Virus record (IMG/VR): IMGVR_UViG_3300046000_004764
Coordinates: 1 to 23,511 of that record
Strand: one strand, 5' to 3'
DNA: 23,511 nt
Source: a virus
Shown: positions 1,499 through 22,835 of the stretch, one piece after another
Position numbering within the stretch: position 1 is the stretch's first letter
Layout of the letters: every line of letters begins with the position of its first letter
Position numbers and translations under genes: made by a program
The notes under the pieces: model-generated
Seen by the model: only the letters and a program-made list of their open reading frames with translations
What the model was told of the DNA's origin: nothing
Databases searched by the model: none

Positions 1499-2480
1499 CG
1501 GCAAAATGATTGGCGATGGGCTGCCGATGAATTTCGTGCTGAACCATGGCGCACTGGGTGATGTAATCTGTTCGCTGCCGGCAGTGATTGCCGGGCGCAA
1601 GGCGGATCCATTCTCCATCATCCGCGTGTGGGCACCCCCGTGGCAGCAAGAATTGTTGGAACACTTGCTCAAGCCCTACGGTGAATTTGAAATCCGCAAC
1701 TTTGAGCACTTCCCCAAGACCAAGGCCGAGCGGGAAAACAGCGGTCTTGGCCACACGGCGCTGAACCAGATGCCGTTCAACACGCACACGCGCAACCGTG
1801 TCCACATGGTCGATTACGCCTTTGGCTGTCTGCTGGACGCGCGCCCGGAGGGCATGCTGGAGCGATGCTATCCGGCCAAGGCACCGCTGGGCAAGCGCCG
1901 ATACGACGAACCCTACGTGGTGTTTCCAGTGGGCAGTACGTCCGAGAACAAACTGTTTCGCGCCAGCGTTATGGCGCCGATCATTGATTGGGTGGACGCA
2001 CAGGGTTACATACCCGTGCTGGTCGGCACAAAGACCAGCCACACCAAGGCAGACGCAGGTGGGGTTTTAACTCCAATTGTGATCGTTGACGAAGTGGACA
2101 AATTACCGGACATCACACGCAGCAAATGTGTTGACCTGCGGGAGACAACGACGCTGCTGGAACTGCGAGACATTTTAGGTCACGCCGAAGCGGTGGTCGG
2201 GGTCGATGGCGGCACGCTGCACTTGGCCGGGACGACCGACACCAACATCATCTACGCCATGGGTGCAACGATCCCGCAGCATCGGTTCATCGCTCGCCAA
2301 GGTGATCCAAGCTACAAGATCCGCTACATCGGACCGCGTGACTTGGAGTGCGCCGGCTGCCAGTCGAAGTGGCGCATGAGCCGGCAGGACTTCCGGCATT
2401 GCGCATACGGAGACAGTCTTTGTATGGCGCAGTTAAGTCCTTTAGATTTTATTGATGGCTTAACGGAACTTGGCCTGTGA
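1488..2480 (+). CDS. Glycosyltransferase family 9-like (heptosyltransferase-like) protein
   Basis: 330 aa. The N-terminal GALGDVICSLP (residues 21-31) is the nucleotide-sugar transferase loop typical of GT9/LPS heptosyltransferases. The C-terminal half has VGVDGGTLHLAG (D240-G242, H245), the GT9 donor-binding motif. The end carries four cysteines (C288, C291, C305, C312) in the place where heptosyltransferases often have a Cys-rich ending. The two halves fit a GT-B fold. Known relatives transfer heptose from ADP-heptose to lipopolysaccharide; the acceptor here is unknown and could be host LPS or a virion protein. GGAG at 1478-1481 supports the ATG at 1488; ATG 1527 is an alternative that keeps the motif. 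It is an unusual gene for a head-assembly block and lies just behind a strong promoter. Confidence 0.75.
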   Translation: MYRDGKMIGDGLPMNFVLNHGALGDVICSLPAVIAGRKADPFSIIRVWAPPWQQELLEHLLKPYGEFEIRNFEHFPKTKAERENSGLGHTALNQMPFNTHTRNRVHMVDYAFGCLLDARPEGMLERCYPAKAPLGKRRYDEPYVVFPVGSTSENKLFRASVMAPIIDWVDAQGYIPVLVGTKTSHTKADAGGVLTPIVIVDEVDKLPDITRSKCVDLRETTTLLELRDILGHAEAVVGVDGGTLHLAGTTDTNIIYAMGATIPQHRFIARQGDPSYKIRYIGPRDLECAGCQSKWRMSRQDFRHCAYGDSLCMAQLSPLDFIDGLTELGL

Positions 2481-3118
2481 CCAGAGTGCTTACTGTAGAA
2501 CAAAAAGCAGCCAAAGCCGCTCAAAACAAAGCGTGGCGCAAACGTAATCCGGAAAAAATTCGTGCATACGAGGCGAAATATCACGCTGCCGCTCCAGAAA
2601 AAAGTAAAGCGAAAAACAAGGCGTATTACACGGCAAACGCACAAAAGCGTATAGCCGCTGCACGAGAATGGGCCGCCGCTAATCCGGAGCGAGTACGTGT
2701 ACGGCAGAACCGTCGCCGATGGCAGGCCGCAGGCATTGACCCAATTGCGGCGGAAGCGTTACACAAAACACACAGCGGCGTCTGTGATTGCTGCGGCCGC
2801 ACTAACCCTGGCGGCAGGTGGGGGTGGAATCTTGATCACTGCCACGATACAGGACGTATCCGAGGGATGCTGTGTCATAACTGCAACACCGCAATAGGCA
2901 AGCTGGGCGACAATCTTGAAGGCGTGATGAACGCCGTCCGTTATCTTGAAAAAGGAGCAGTAAAATGCCTGACCCGAATCCCGCACCCGCCCCGAACCCC
3001 GCTCCGGCGCCAGCACCCGCACCTGATCCCGCGGCTGCCCCGTGGCACGGCATCACCGATCCGGACGCCGCCGCCTACATTACCAACAAAGGCTGGACTG
3101 CTCCCGCGGATATTGTGA
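2477..3118 (+). CDS. HNH nuclease, recombination endonuclease VII type
   Basis: 213 aa from a GTG start that overlaps the stop of the glycosyltransferase gene (GTGA). Residues 1-85 are basic with repeated short units (NPEKIRAYEAKY, APEKSKAKNKAYY, NPERVRVRQNRRR), a likely DNA-binding arm. The catalytic part has C103, C105/C106, then LDHCHDTG (D120, H121, H123) and LCHNCN (C133, C136, N137): the zinc-bound beta-beta-alpha metal site of the T4 endonuclease VII family. In that family the fold ends about where YLEKG occurs (residue 156). Here there is no stop and the frame continues 57 codons, 154 bases of them inside the scaffold gene, as a Pro/Arg-rich tail. The 5' half is lower in GC than its neighbours (one 60-base line counts 43%), which suggests later insertion. 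Confidence 0.83.
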   Translation: MTRVLTVEQKAAKAAQNKAWRKRNPEKIRAYEAKYHAAAPEKSKAKNKAYYTANAQKRIAAAREWAAANPERVRVRQNRRRWQAAGIDPIAAEALHKTHSGVCDCCGRTNPGGRWGWNLDHCHDTGRIRGMLCHNCNTAIGKLGDNLEGVMNAVRYLEKGAVKCLTRIPHPPRTPLRRQHPHLIPRLPRGTASPIRTPPPTLPTKAGLLPRIL

Positions 3119-3813
3119 AATCCTACCAAGGCGTTGAAAAGCTGATCGGACGTGACCCGTCCACGCTGATCACCATGCCGCGCATGGACGACCCGGAAGG
3201 GGTCAAGGCCGTGTTCCAGAAGCTGGGTCTGCCTGAGTCGCCGGACAAATACGACATGACGGTTGGCCTGCCGAAAGAAGCCAAGGTCGATGAGACTTTT
3301 GCCAAAACCATGCAGGGCATGTTCCACAAGGCCAACCTGACGGTCGATCAAGCAAAGACCCTAGCGGCCGACTACAACGCGCTGTCGGTGGCGAAAGCAG
3401 CGCAGGAAGCCAAAGACTACGAACTGAACGTCCAGGCCGACAAGCAGGCGTTGCTTGACGAATGGAAGGGCGGGCATGACCGGATGATGAACCGGGCCAA
3501 GACCGCTGCGACCAGTCTGGGCTTCACCACGGAACTGATCGACGCTATCGAAAAGCAGGTCGGCTACGCGGCCACCTACAAATTGCTGGCTGAGATTGGC
3601 AGCAAGCTTGGCGAAGACACGCTGATCACGCAACACAAGAACACCGACTTCGGCACACAGTTGACTCCTGACGAAGCCAAGTCCCAGCTGGCGACCGCGC
3701 GCAGCGACCCGAACCATATTGCCGCCCTGAAGGACAAGAGCCACCCAGGACACAAGATGGCGCAAGAGAAGGAGAACAAGCTTTTTGCCATTATGTACCC
3801 GGGTAACAAGTGA
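2965..3813 (+). CDS. Capsid scaffolding protein
   Basis: 282 aa. Scaffolds guide capsid subunits into a procapsid and then leave. The protein starts with a Pro/Ala-rich stretch (residues 2-26), followed by an ITDPDAAAYITNKGW segment, a GLPESPDKYDM segment, a long charged helical middle rich in Ala, Lys and Glu, and a basic C-terminus (KMAQEKENKLFAIMYPG). Phage scaffolds of this type often have the pattern 'W....D, aYi.nKGW.....l..sY...EkliG' near the N-terminus, which is clear at residues 30-60. GGAG at 2954-2957, seven bases before ATG, supports the start. That ribosome site lies inside the HNH frame. It is placed directly before the capsid gene, as expected for a scaffold. Confidence 0.8.
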   Translation: MPDPNPAPAPNPAPAPAPAPDPAAAPWHGITDPDAAAYITNKGWTAPADIVKSYQGVEKLIGRDPSTLITMPRMDDPEGVKAVFQKLGLPESPDKYDMTVGLPKEAKVDETFAKTMQGMFHKANLTVDQAKTLAADYNALSVAKAAQEAKDYELNVQADKQALLDEWKGGHDRMMNRAKTAATSLGFTTELIDAIEKQVGYAATYKLLAEIGSKLGEDTLITQHKNTDFGTQLTPDEAKSQLATARSDPNHIAALKDKSHPGHKMAQEKENKLFAIMYPGNK

Positions 3814-3989
3814 TGGAAGAACGCGAAATCAGACTGCGCTGCATCGAAGCCGCCGCCAAAACCCCCACGGTCCACCCGAAAGGGCAGGCCGAGGGGGTAG
3901 TTGAAATTGCAAGTGCTTGGTTTAATTGGATTATTTCTCCACCGAAAGGAGAAACCCCGAAGACTCTTGGGTTACCGGGGAAGAAATAG
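3813..3989 (+). CDS. Small conserved phage protein between scaffold and capsid
   Basis: 58 aa. ATG overlaps the scaffold stop (TGATG), so translation is probably coupled. The sequence EREIRLRCIEAAAKTPT followed by EGVVEIASAWFNWI has the layout of small helical proteins often found after the scaffold gene in podo- and other phages. A few polar residues precede an R-L-R-C-I-E-A helix, then comes a second amphipathic helix ending in W..WI. Function is not known. The codons of its 3' end also contain two tandem hairpins (3934-3954 and 3956-3971), and the stop lies ten bases before the extended -10 promoter for the capsid gene. It is a real gene by overlap, codon use and sequence character, though short. 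Confidence 0.7.
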   Translation: MEEREIRLRCIEAAAKTPTVHPKGQAEGVVEIASAWFNWIISPPKGETPKTLGLPGKK

Positions 3990-3998
3990 CCAGCGGTG

Positions 3999-4007
3999 TG
4001 CTATCAT
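3999..4007 (+). promoter_or_regulatory. Extended -10 promoter for the capsid gene (candidate)
   Basis: TGCTATCAT matches the extended -10 consensus TGNTATAAT at all positions but one. The -10 hexamer TATCAT is the same as in the promoter at 1187-1192. No -35 box is visible at 16 to 18 bases upstream, which extended -10 promoters can tolerate. Transcription would start near 4013-4016, exactly at the left edge of the structured leader, which supports the call. Confidence 0.5.
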
Positions 4008-4012
4008 TAACT

Positions 4013-4153
4013 TGTAGGGAAGTCACGCGGACAAGGTGAAAACCCCCGCAATGTGATCGACCGACATGGCCCCCGAAGTTTGGGACAAGCCGGCAATGTC
4101 CAGCCAGATAGGACAAAACCTGTTTGTTTTAAACCTAAACTTCGGAGCATACC
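4013..4153 (+). promoter_or_regulatory. Structured 5' leader of the capsid mRNA with a ribosome-site pseudoknot (candidate)
   Basis: Two hairpins can be drawn by hand. Hairpin 1: 4022-4026 pairs with 4053-4057, 4027-4030 with 4046-4049, and 4035-4037 with 4042-4044 closing a GAAA tetraloop. Hairpin 2: 4063-4067 pairs with 4096-4100 and 4068-4070 with 4089-4091, leaving an 18-base loop. In that loop, CCGAAGTTTGGG (4073-4084) is complementary over all 12 positions (one G-U) to CCTAAACTTCGG (4134-4145). The latter includes the first two bases of the capsid Shine-Dalgarno GGAG (4144-4147). The loop can also pair on itself (CCC 4071-4073 with GGG 4082-4084), giving two exclusive states. What would switch them (capsid or scaffold protein, ribosome, ligand) is not visible. 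No protein-coding frame explains the region. Confidence 0.6.
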
Positions 4154-5047
4154 ATGCCGGATAACATCACAGTAGCCTCAGTACAACAGTACAAGGCGAA
4201 CGTCGAACTTCTGCTGCAACAAACCGATTCCCGCCTCGCCGGTGCCGTCACCGTTGGCAGTTACGTTGGCAAAGCCGCCAGCACTGTCGAACAGTTCGGT
4301 TCCGCCACGGCCGTCCAGCGCACCAGCCGTCACGCTGACACCCCGCTGCTGGACCTCTCGCAAGACAAGCGTTGGGTCTTCCCGACCGACTACGAATGGG
4401 CTTCGCTGATCGACAAGCAAGACCAGCTGCGCGCCATCGTTGAACTGACCAGCCCGTATGCCATGGCGGGTGCTGCCGCGATGAACCGCGTCAAGGATGA
4501 CATCATCCTGGCCGCGATCTTCGGCACCAACTACACCGGCGAAAACGGCACGACCGCTGAAACTTTTGGCACCGTCGGCTCCGGCACCTACGATGTGGGC
4601 GTCAACACGGGCGGCGCCGCTTCGGCGCTGAACGTGGCCAAGCTGCAGTCGGCCATCCAGAAGCTGATGCTGGCGAACAAAGGCGAACTGAGTGAGTCCG
4701 TCTACGGCGCCATCTCCAGTTACGAACACGACGCGCTGCTGAAGGAAATGCAAGTCGTCAACAAGGACTACGGCAACAGCGCAGTTCTGGTGGACGGCAA
4801 GGTCAAGCGTTTCATGGGTGTTGACTTCATCATCACTGAGCGCCTGACGGTCACGTCCGGCAATCGCCTGATCCCGCTGTGGCTCAAGTCTGGTATGCAC
4901 CTCGGCATGTGGGATGAAGTTCGGGCTGAAATTGGCCCGCGCGCAGACAAGGGTTACGCGACCCAAGTCTACCTCGCCATGACCCTCGGCGCAACCCGCA
5001 CGCAGCTGGGCAAGCAAATTCGCATCTCGTGCGACGACCAAATCTAA
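4154..5047 (+). CDS. Major capsid protein
   Basis: 297 aa. It forms the icosahedral shell. The sequence (VASVQQYKANVELLLQQTDSRLAGAV near the N-terminus, DTPLLDLSQDKRWVFPTDYEWASLIDKQDQLRAI at 55-90, MNRVKDDIILAAIFGTNYTGE, then AISSYEHDALLKEMQVVNKDYG and a FMGVDFIITERL segment) has the character of the BPP-1-like podovirus capsid family, which has an HK97-related fold. In BPP-1 the fold is a permuted version of HK97; that is family knowledge, not visible here. GGAG at 4144-4147 lies six bases before the ATG and is partly covered by the leader pairing. Scaffold precedes and a cementing-protein candidate follows. No cleavage site or protease gene is seen nearby. Confidence 0.9.
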   Translation: MPDNITVASVQQYKANVELLLQQTDSRLAGAVTVGSYVGKAASTVEQFGSATAVQRTSRHADTPLLDLSQDKRWVFPTDYEWASLIDKQDQLRAIVELTSPYAMAGAAAMNRVKDDIILAAIFGTNYTGENGTTAETFGTVGSGTYDVGVNTGGAASALNVAKLQSAIQKLMLANKGELSESVYGAISSYEHDALLKEMQVVNKDYGNSAVLVDGKVKRFMGVDFIITERLTVTSGNRLIPLWLKSGMHLGMWDEVRAEIGPRADKGYATQVYLAMTLGATRTQLGKQIRISCDDQI

Positions 5048-20899: not shown

Positions 20900-21231
20900 C
20901 CCTCGGCCAGAAACAGCGCAAGTTCGTCCGCATGATTGCGGACCTGATCGTCTGGGCGTACGACAACGGGTATGAACTGACCTTTGGGGACGCCTACCGC
21001 GACCCCCGGCTGCACGGCCAGATGGGCTGGAAGGTCGGCTACGGTGCCGCCAGTTCCTGCCACAAGATCCGCCTGGCCGTGGACTTCAATCTGTTCAAGG
21101 ACGGGGTGTTCTTGGAAACCACAGAGGGGCACGCCCCGCTTGGTGCTGAATGGGAGCGCCTCGGTGGATCGTGGGGTGGGCGTTTCAACGACGCCAACCA
21201 CTATAGCCTAGAGCACGAAGGGCGGCGATGA
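20896..21231 (+). CDS. Endolysin, M15-type peptidase
   Basis: 111 aa from a GTG overlapping the previous stop (GTGA). It degrades peptidoglycan peptide links at lysis. The sequence has AYRDPRLHGQ, then SSCHKIRLAVDFNLF with zinc ligands H56 and D63, and GGRFNDANHYSLEHEGR with H102 as third ligand: the zinc site of the M15 group (L-alanyl-D-glutamate or D-Ala-D-Ala peptidases). There is no signal peptide, so it depends on a holin for release. The size is that of a single-domain endolysin. It is placed with a secreted protein before it and a holin after it, with an HNH gene in between. Confidence 0.85.
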   Translation: MTLGQKQRKFVRMIADLIVWAYDNGYELTFGDAYRDPRLHGQMGWKVGYGAASSCHKIRLAVDFNLFKDGVFLETTEGHAPLGAEWERLGGSWGGRFNDANHYSLEHEGRR

Positions 21232-21686
21232 CTTGCCGTTTATGCGGGGCGGTGACAGACACGCGAGCAAAAGTGTGCCCAGCGTGCAAGCCGAAGGCAG
21301 CGGTCGCTAGAGCCAGAGCTTGGTATTTGGAAAACAAAGAGCGCAAGCGCGAGTATGACGCGGCGTATCGTGCGGCACGACGAGACTATTGGCGGGCTGT
21401 TGCTAAGCGGCACCGGGACAGAAATCCTGAAGCTAAAAAAGCGGACACTGGGGTTAGGCGGAAACGCAGTCAAGAAGCCACTCCGATTTGGGCCAACAGA
21501 TTTTTCATCAAAGAAATATACGCGCTTGCTATTCAGCGAACAGCGTTGACCGGGCGTAAGTGGCACGTTGACCACGTAATACCTTTGAAGCATCCGGCTG
21601 TGTGCGGGCTGCACGTTCCCGCAAACCTTCGCGTGGTTCCAGCAGAAATAAATCTACGTAAGCACAACAGATACGAGGTGGTGTAA
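21228..21686 (+). CDS. HNH nuclease with zinc finger
   Basis: 152 aa; ATGA overlap with the endolysin and TAATG overlap with the holin. Four N-terminal cysteines (C3, C6, C17, C20) form a zinc-finger pattern. Residues 25-80 are basic helices with repeated Y/W and R (WYLENKERKREYDAAYRAARRDYWRAVAKRHRDRNPE), a likely DNA-binding arm. The nuclease part is HVDHVIPLKHPAVCGLHVPANLRVVPAEINLRKHN, with D115, H116, N133, N142 and H146 in HNH positions. It sits between endolysin and holin without breaking either, as free-standing homing nucleases do. Confidence 0.85.
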   Translation: MTCRLCGAVTDTRAKVCPACKPKAAVARARAWYLENKERKREYDAAYRAARRDYWRAVAKRHRDRNPEAKKADTGVRRKRSQEATPIWANRFFIKEIYALAIQRTALTGRKWHVDHVIPLKHPAVCGLHVPANLRVVPAEINLRKHNRYEVV

Positions 21687-22242: not shown

Positions 22243-22462
22243 GCAGTTCGTCCAGCCGCACCCCGAGCACGTCCGCGGTGAACCGATCAGGCCCGCCGCC
22301 TTTGAGCACCGTGCCCGCCATCTTGCCGTAGACCGGGGCAATCTTGACGGTCAGCACATCGCCATCATGGTAGCAGCGTTGGCTTAACCGGTCGTTGATT
22401 TTGCACTGGCGTTCGACCGTGCGGTGGCAGGTGGGGCACCACAGATCATAAAGTGGAGGCAT
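22208..22462 (-). CDS. Zinc-ribbon protein, FmdB-like
   Basis: 84 aa. MPPLYDLWCPTCHRTVERQCKINDRLSQRCYH starts like the FmdB-type regulatory zinc ribbons ('P.Y.f.C..C...'). It has C9 and C12 as one knuckle and C20 and C30 as possible partners. A GGGGGA motif lies before the ATG on the - strand. The role is unknown; such proteins are common, small and often near replication genes in phages. It is 17 bases into the end of the HNH frame. Its end overlaps the end of the + strand mini-protein by 35 bases, so the two operons converge here. Confidence 0.7.
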   Translation of the reverse strand: MPPLYDLWCPTCHRTVERQCKINDRLSQRCYHDGDVLTVKIAPVYGKMAGTVLKGGGPDRFTADVLGVRLDELPSGLRTEPPPK

Positions 22463-22835
22463 TTGTTTTCCCCCATCTGGCTGCGTGACCTTTTATAGAC
22501 ATTGCTTTTGCTCGATCTGCTGGCATGTGTTCTCGATGATGTTCGGATGCTGACAATAACTCCAAGTTCTCTAAACGATTGTCTTTTTTATCACCATTGA
22601 TGTGATGGACGTGTTCGCTTGATGCTAACGGCCGCTGAAGATGTTGCTCCATAACAACGCGATGCTCATAGCACTCTTTGCCATCGCGCATAATCATTAT
22701 GTATCCGGCCGCACTTATACGAAAAGGCGCGCCTTTGCCTTTTCCTGGATGATTGTGCTTAAACCTGCACGGCCTGCAATACATCGAGCGAGAGTCTTTT
22801 ATGCCGGAGCAAGCCGGGCATTTGTCTTTCCTCAT
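22446..22835 (-). CDS. HNH homing-type nuclease
   Basis: 129 aa; ATGA overlap with the stop of the ATPase gene, with GGAGG at a good distance in the end of that gene. C6/C9 and C20/C23 make a zinc finger. GYIMIMRDGKECYEHRVVMEQHLQRPL followed by HVHHINGDKKDNRLENLELLSASEHHREH is the HNH_3 homing nuclease pattern, with H77, H78, N86, N90 and H99 in the site. The C-terminal helix (ADRAKAMSIKGHAARWGKT) may bind DNA. It lies between the replication ATPase and the zinc-ribbon gene, and its last 17 bases cover the latter's start. Confidence 0.87.
   Translation of the reverse strand: MRKDKCPACSGIKDSRSMYCRPCRFKHNHPGKGKGAPFRISAAGYIMIMRDGKECYEHRVVMEQHLQRPLASSEHVHHINGDKKDNRLENLELLSASEHHREHMPADRAKAMSIKGHAARWGKTNASTL

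Follow-up and report, generated by a model that had tools for sequence, protein, structure and literature searches.

Control of gene expression by structured RNA at or near the start of a message is known from several systems that invite comparison with the locus described here. Translational riboswitches carry a conserved recognition part upstream of a platform that sequesters the Shine-Dalgarno (SD) sequence, and adopt mutually exclusive folds in one of which the SD is paired. The mRNA leader of T4 gene 32 controls an abundant phage protein by autogenous repression through a pseudoknot; the put RNA of phage HK022 consists of two hairpins transcribed early from a phage promoter (PMC9378689); and the coat-protein operators of MS2 and its relatives are small hairpins near the start codons of RNA phage genes. 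The timing and dosing of shell protein in tailed phages, for their part, have so far been attributed mostly to promoters and gene order.

The 5' leader of a tailed-phage major capsid gene resembles each of these RNAs in part: it has two exclusive folds with the SD paired in one, it stands before the gene of an abundant phage protein, and it contains small hairpins, two in number and made early from a phage promoter, near a start codon. An earlier note, made from the sequence alone, described it as a pseudoknot-like structure in which the loop of one hairpin could pair with, and so cover, the ribosome site of the capsid gene.

The head operon and its relatives

The window (the whole stretch of DNA analysed, a viral record of 23511 bases) contains a tailed-phage head operon in which a portal-like gene (PF12236) is followed by a probable scaffold gene, an ORF of 59 aa, the major capsid protein gene and the tail genes. 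The features around the capsid gene start are:

2965 to 3813, plus strand: probable scaffold gene, putative by position (phrog_3742, unknown function, 2.8e-32)
3810 to 3989, plus strand: small ORF of 59 aa just 5' of the leader, a conserved small protein with relatives in many loci
3999 to 4007, plus strand: extended -10 promoter element TGC-TATCAT; the transcript is predicted to start at about 4014-4017
4144 to 4147, plus strand: Shine-Dalgarno GGAG of the capsid gene, 6 nt before the ATG at 4154
4154 to 5047, plus strand: major capsid protein gene (PF19821, Pfam 9.3e-69; phrog_3437, PHROG 2.7e-63)

Elsewhere in the window, reading of the sequence indicated putative ORFs of HNH or endonuclease VII type at 2477-3118 and 21228-21686, and a putative glycosyltransferase ORF at 1488-2480, between the portal-like and scaffold genes. 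An HNH-like ORF on the minus strand (22446-22835) was the one protein found to have a counterpart in a phrog_14242 phage, G004.

Relatives were fetched by protein, with the RNA not used as a query: the capsid protein of the window yielded 80 IMG/VR loci, a second capsid query 80 further IMG/VR loci, and INPHARED some cultured phages. Leaders of clade 1 share a single layout, in which the extended -10 promoter stands at a fixed distance from the hairpins and is followed in order by P1, H1, H2, P4 (all defined below) and the SD.

Translation of the small upstream gene had been proposed in the earlier note as one possible means of switching capsid synthesis. Such control does not hold generally: the window clade has its conserved extended -10 promoter between that gene and the leader (TGnTAnnnT is found 18-24 nt 5' of the H1 motif in 44 of 46 clade-1 leaders, versus 4.5% in shuffles), and the gene was not detected in the records of several RNA-bearing phages (L176, L098, L202, L208, L183, L152 and L154), for which reason its product was also rejected as an obligatory partner of the RNA; the L165 record is a short fragment. 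The family of the small protein bears the signature EIRLRCIEAA..., and in some relatives the protein has a basic tail that is KRGRPPK-like; at L233-L235 and L265 its reading frame continues through the RNA element.

Hairpins of the open fold

The leader has two folds. Its first part contains four elements, of which H1 and H2 are the hairpins of the open fold:

4022 to 4057, plus strand: stem P1 (4022-4026/4053-4057), enclosing H1; present in predicted folds, absent from the RNAalifold consensus
4027 to 4049, plus strand: hairpin H1, GCGG-ACAA-GG-loop-CC-C-CCGC, module copy 1; in the RNAalifold consensus
4068 to 4091, plus strand: hairpin H2, GGC-C-CCC-GAAGUUU-GGG-ACAA-GCC, module copy 2, open state; in the RNAalifold consensus
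4097 to 4115, plus strand: hairpin P4, UGUCC-AGCCAGAUA-GGACA, a variable stem with a conserved AGCCnGAU loop; changes on both sides

Run unguided, RNAalifold recovers the open fold, returning H1 and H2 together with P4. The first hairpin of the earlier note (4022-4057) is present as it was drawn, with the addition of an internal loop missing from that description: ACAA (4031-4034) lies opposite C4045, between a stem of 4027-4030/4046-4049 and the cap GGU-GAAA-ACC. Across the wider set the outer stem of H1 varies (GCGG:CCGC, CCCG:CGGG, GTGG:CCAC, TCCG:CGGA and others). The second hairpin stood only in its inner portion; GGC:GCC (4068-4070/4089-4091) is conserved, but GACAU:AUGUC (4063-4067/4096-4100) was not seen in relatives, which instead pair UGUCC with GGACA (4097-4101/4111-4115). 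All five pairs of P4 show changes on both sides, with 90% of cells paired, and the hairpin outperforms shuffled and slid controls.

The internal loop of H2 places ACAA (4085-4088) opposite C4071. Its inner stem is CCC:GGG (4072-4074/4082-4084), so that bases 4073-4074 and 4082-4084, formerly counted as loop, belong to the hairpin. Inner pair 3 occurs as CG 33, TA 23, GC 18 and AT 3 times and is paired in 92% of cases versus 47% expected; H2 thus covaries independently of the SD helix. An upstream reading frame from the ATG at 4066 was considered and rejected, since that ATG is unconserved in relatives.

A helix that covers the Shine-Dalgarno

The second, closed fold consists of two helices:

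4073 to 4084 with 4134 to 4145, plus strand: helix P6, 12 bp, closed state; cognate versus swapped pairing z 9.8, core pairs changing on both sides
4085 to 4127, plus strand: predicted helix P5 (4085-4090/4122-4127 and 4092-4093/4119-4120), closed state; in the minimum free energy fold

P6 joins CCGAAGUUUGGG (4073-4084) to CCUAAACUUCGG (4134-4145) through 11 Watson-Crick pairs and one G-U, and in the window takes up 4144-4145, two of the four SD bases. P5 occupies the ACAAGC strand of H2, and P5-like pairing of the type AAGCCGG:CTGGCTT was seen by eye in relatives. The coordinates given in the earlier note were correct throughout, as was its judgement that a 12-bp match at this place is improbable by chance: dinucleotide shuffles of 4013-4153 contained a 12-bp helix at any place, with one G-U at most, in 3 of 2000 cases, and shuffling of the sequence 5' of the SD never gave one running through the SD in 5000 trials. 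Folding of 3990-4170 gave -62.7 kcal/mol (z -4.0), and the P6 core outperforms shuffled and slid controls. An attenuator or terminator was rejected, as the window has no U run 3' of P6.

Both H2 and the SD are base-biased, the former C-rich and the latter purine-rich, and their complementarity might on that account be fortuitous. In a swap test, each H2 region was therefore paired both with its own SD region and with the SD regions of other phages of the same group, a design that excludes base bias as the source of the pairing. Cognate pairing exceeded swapped pairing in clade 1 (z 9.8, or 9.7 with a wider region; 0 of 20000 permutations), in the second group (z 13.0; 0 of 20000) and in the mixed remainder (z 2.8; 84 of 20000). 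Strands of equal bias thus pair significantly worse when exchanged, which contradicts chance complementarity and leaves it extremely improbable.

The SD helix of clade 1 takes such varied forms as CCGUAAG/CUUACGG, CCCUGAA/UUCAGGG, CCUCCUG/CAGGAGG and CCGUUA/UAACGG, and part of the second group pairs the SD region with the strand immediately 3' of H2 (AAGCCCUCC with GGAGGGUUU), an arrangement that still uses the outer stem of H2. Among 98 leaders, 79 have an SD helix with a score of at least 14 (median overlap with H2, 7 nt); the helix takes in at least one of five SD bases in 67 and at least three in 41. On comparison of these sequences, homologous capsid leaders keep the SD helix by compensatory change. 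The earlier note had been prepared to abandon its proposal should related phages display neither covariation nor conservation of the pairing; the z values of 9.8 and 13.0 are the opposite outcome. The substance of that proposal, an RNA fold able to gate translation of the capsid gene, is very likely, given that covariation preserves the helix.

Two exclusive folds rather than a pseudoknot

The pseudoknot form itself was not borne out. P6 takes both arms of the H2 stem, which makes the two mutually exclusive, and many relatives close H2 with a tetraloop (GUAA, GAAA or GCAA), which is unable to pair while H2 stands. Coexistence of a hairpin with pairing of its loop, as in a leader of the T4 gene 32 type, was accordingly not found; what was found is two conserved exclusive folds, one of them covering the SD, as in an RNA switch, and the leader is better read in that way. 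Because the SD helix covaries and H2 covaries on its own, both folds appear to be under selection.

Predicted folds also suggest an order of formation. The median predicted probability of H2 is 0.62 before the SD region has been synthesised and 0.0006 after, with a drop of more than 0.5 in 43 leaders and a rise in 2; successive prefixes of the leader of the window are predicted to contain H2 up to about 4132 and P6 from about 4140. That leader folds at -57.0 kcal/mol, versus -41.4 kcal/mol without P6, and over the leaders the median advantage of the closed fold is about 10 kcal/mol.

The internal-loop module

H1 and H2 have in common a module, GG-AYAA-G opposite C-C-CC, which they cap at opposite ends. 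When 3+2 pairs were required, the H2 kind was found in 94 of 112 non-redundant capsid leaders (84%), as against 8 of 1002 coding segments (0.8%) and 1.4% of shuffles; the corresponding figures for the H1 kind were 64 of 112, 24 of 1002 and 1.2%. Where H2-type 4x1 hairpins were collected with the loop sequence unselected, 83 of 106 in leaders proved to be ACAA, AUAA or AUAC. H1 and H2 were also examined for joint change at position 2 of the module, and none was seen. Trained solely on clade 1, a covariance model matched the window and 38 more places, nearly all of them leaders ending at a capsid start codon; it found second-group leaders and also the starts of operons in L176 (E 2e-4) and L098 (E 0.04).

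These counts bear on the idea of a ligand-free kinetic timer, by which only nascent mRNA would be translated before P6 closes, with H1 and H2 guiding the folding or protecting the message. The predicted order, in which H2 forms first and the completed P6 then wins, is what such a timer would display. The AYAA/C loop, however, is conserved far more than a folding guide requires, and recurs where an SD helix is not evident, so that a timer is quite unlikely.

Module arrays with other capsid families

In phages with phrog_14242 capsids, up to four modules surround the start of a scaffold-like ORF, two of the H1 type before it and two of the H2 type inside, the latter visible as a peptide repeat, APxxxGQA. 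Two H1-type and two H2-type hairpins lie around the scaffold-like start codon in L176, L168, L175 and L200-L210. All detected copies read AUCA in L206 and L207, as do three of four in L209 (the fourth being ACCA); in their relatives L208 and L210 the loop stays ACAA. This concerted change, seen in few and related loci, suggests that each phage has a single recognising partner. In phages with phrog_1328 and phrog_267 capsids, too, arrays stand before scaffold ORFs or at their beginning. L348, L376, L382, L435, L483, L494, L528 and L530, from phages of the phrog_14242, phrog_1328 and phrog_267 capsid families, have arrays at, or within, the opening codons of scaffold-like ORFs. L098 and its relatives have an array at the start of a gene for a 437-aa protein. 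That protein, which stands behind the module leader in L098 and L211-L215, has a position suggesting a capsid protein; it had no PHROG or Pfam match, and its structure model was uninformative (pLDDT 33). As the later loci came from pattern searches, they speak to the occurrence of the module rather than to its frequency. Cultured phages with related capsids (Rhizobium, Microbacterium, Arthrobacter, Brevibacterium and the thermophilic D6E) gave no clear array at their scaffold starts. The only phage proteins found to be shared among carrier lineages were an HNH-like ORF (in one pair) and a weak 161-aa match (in another).

Such placement brings to mind an autogenous operator, in which unassembled capsid or scaffold protein would bind the paired modules and repress initiation, with P6 as the repressed fold, and would so match shell protein synthesis to assembly. 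The scaffold of P22 regulates its own synthesis; the modules sit before scaffold or capsid genes of the phrog_3437, 14242, 1328 and 267 families, and the four that flank the phrog_14242 scaffold start codon, two per side, are disposed like a blocking operator. This reading is nonetheless rather unlikely, in that P6 destroys H2 in capsid leaders, so that binding to H2 should open the SD and not close it, and in that the capsid proteins of the carriers are without recognisable sequence relationship.

Processing or antitermination of the transcript, with nascent modules recruiting a factor to RNA polymerase in the manner of lambda nut or HK022 put, would suit modules that open long late operons and, in the window clade, an RNA immediately downstream of a conserved promoter. 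A lambda-type nut site comprises boxA and a boxB hairpin, whose GNRA-like pentaloop is bound by an N peptide; loop and partner typically co-evolve in the case of N and boxB. Such a signal would leave the covarying SD helix unexplained; many second-group leaders have an H1 that overlaps the upstream gene's end, with no promoter recognised there by eye; and a module scan of HK022 (24.5-40.75 kb) gave four scattered weak matches and no module pair. Antitermination is decidedly unlikely.

A candidate two-state switch

The preferred reading, to which a probability of about 0.5 is assigned, is that the leader of the capsid mRNA (about 4016-4153, with its own promoter in the window clade) is a two-state RNA switch, in which P5/P6 lowers capsid translation and a module-binding factor holds the open fold. 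During transcription H1 and H2 would fold first, while the SD region is still unmade or free; once that region is transcribed, the more stable P5/P6 could form and consume both strands of H2, P6 pairing two SD bases (up to five in other phages) and so lowering translation. A putative factor, probably a protein and probably phage-encoded, would bind H1 and H2 and stabilise the open fold; capsid would then be made in its presence, with the closed fold as the default. This factor and the sign of its effect are the weakest part of the reading. The two folds, their exclusivity, the module and its spread are established by comparison of sequences; lowered translation is the probable consequence of P6, given that it pairs the SD. 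The concerted loop change in L206, L207 and L209 fits a co-evolving partner. Unless it acts during transcription, a bound factor would have difficulty in overcoming the closed fold's advantage of about 10 kcal/mol. Also against this reading are two negative results given above, on joint change at module position 2 and on a phage protein common to the different carrier lineages.

Around scaffold start codons the module is found with no SD helix in evidence, and its basic role may therefore be a different one. A broader proposal, offered more tentatively than the switch and at clearly less than even odds, is that the module in generalised form (GG-AYMM-G/C-C-CC, in two to four copies and either strand order) is a head-operon signal of several lineages with different capsid families, through which a co-evolving phage factor times shell building, and which is coupled to the SD in PF19821 phages. 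Taken together, the comparisons point to a new family of structured leader RNAs that would control head-gene expression, in the window clade by way of an SD switch. If this is true, a capsid mRNA switch conserved across many uncultured phages and built from a portable module adds an RNA-level layer to phage assembly, and could both help to locate head genes in metagenomes and serve as a compact switch for laboratory gene control.

Comparison with known systems

The earlier note knew of no described element of this form, and the searches agree: Rfam 15 gave no match at gathering score over the whole window, none at E up to 5 in 3800-4300 and, in nine related loci, again none at E up to 1; no description was found in the literature searched, which includes few subscription journals. 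The capsid-leader RNA differs from translational riboswitches in its lack of a known ligand or Rfam match, in its place before phage capsid genes, and in carrying two copies of one internal-loop module. Unlike the T4 gene 32 leader, it has no stable pseudoknot, its hairpin and long helix being exclusive, and both sequence and gene are different. HK022 put belongs to an early operon, whereas this RNA belongs to a head operon and has a covarying SD helix. Finally, where the operators of MS2 and its relatives are built from a bulged A and a loop, the module is a 4x1 internal loop, usually present in two to four copies, and its carriers are tailed phages with double-stranded DNA.
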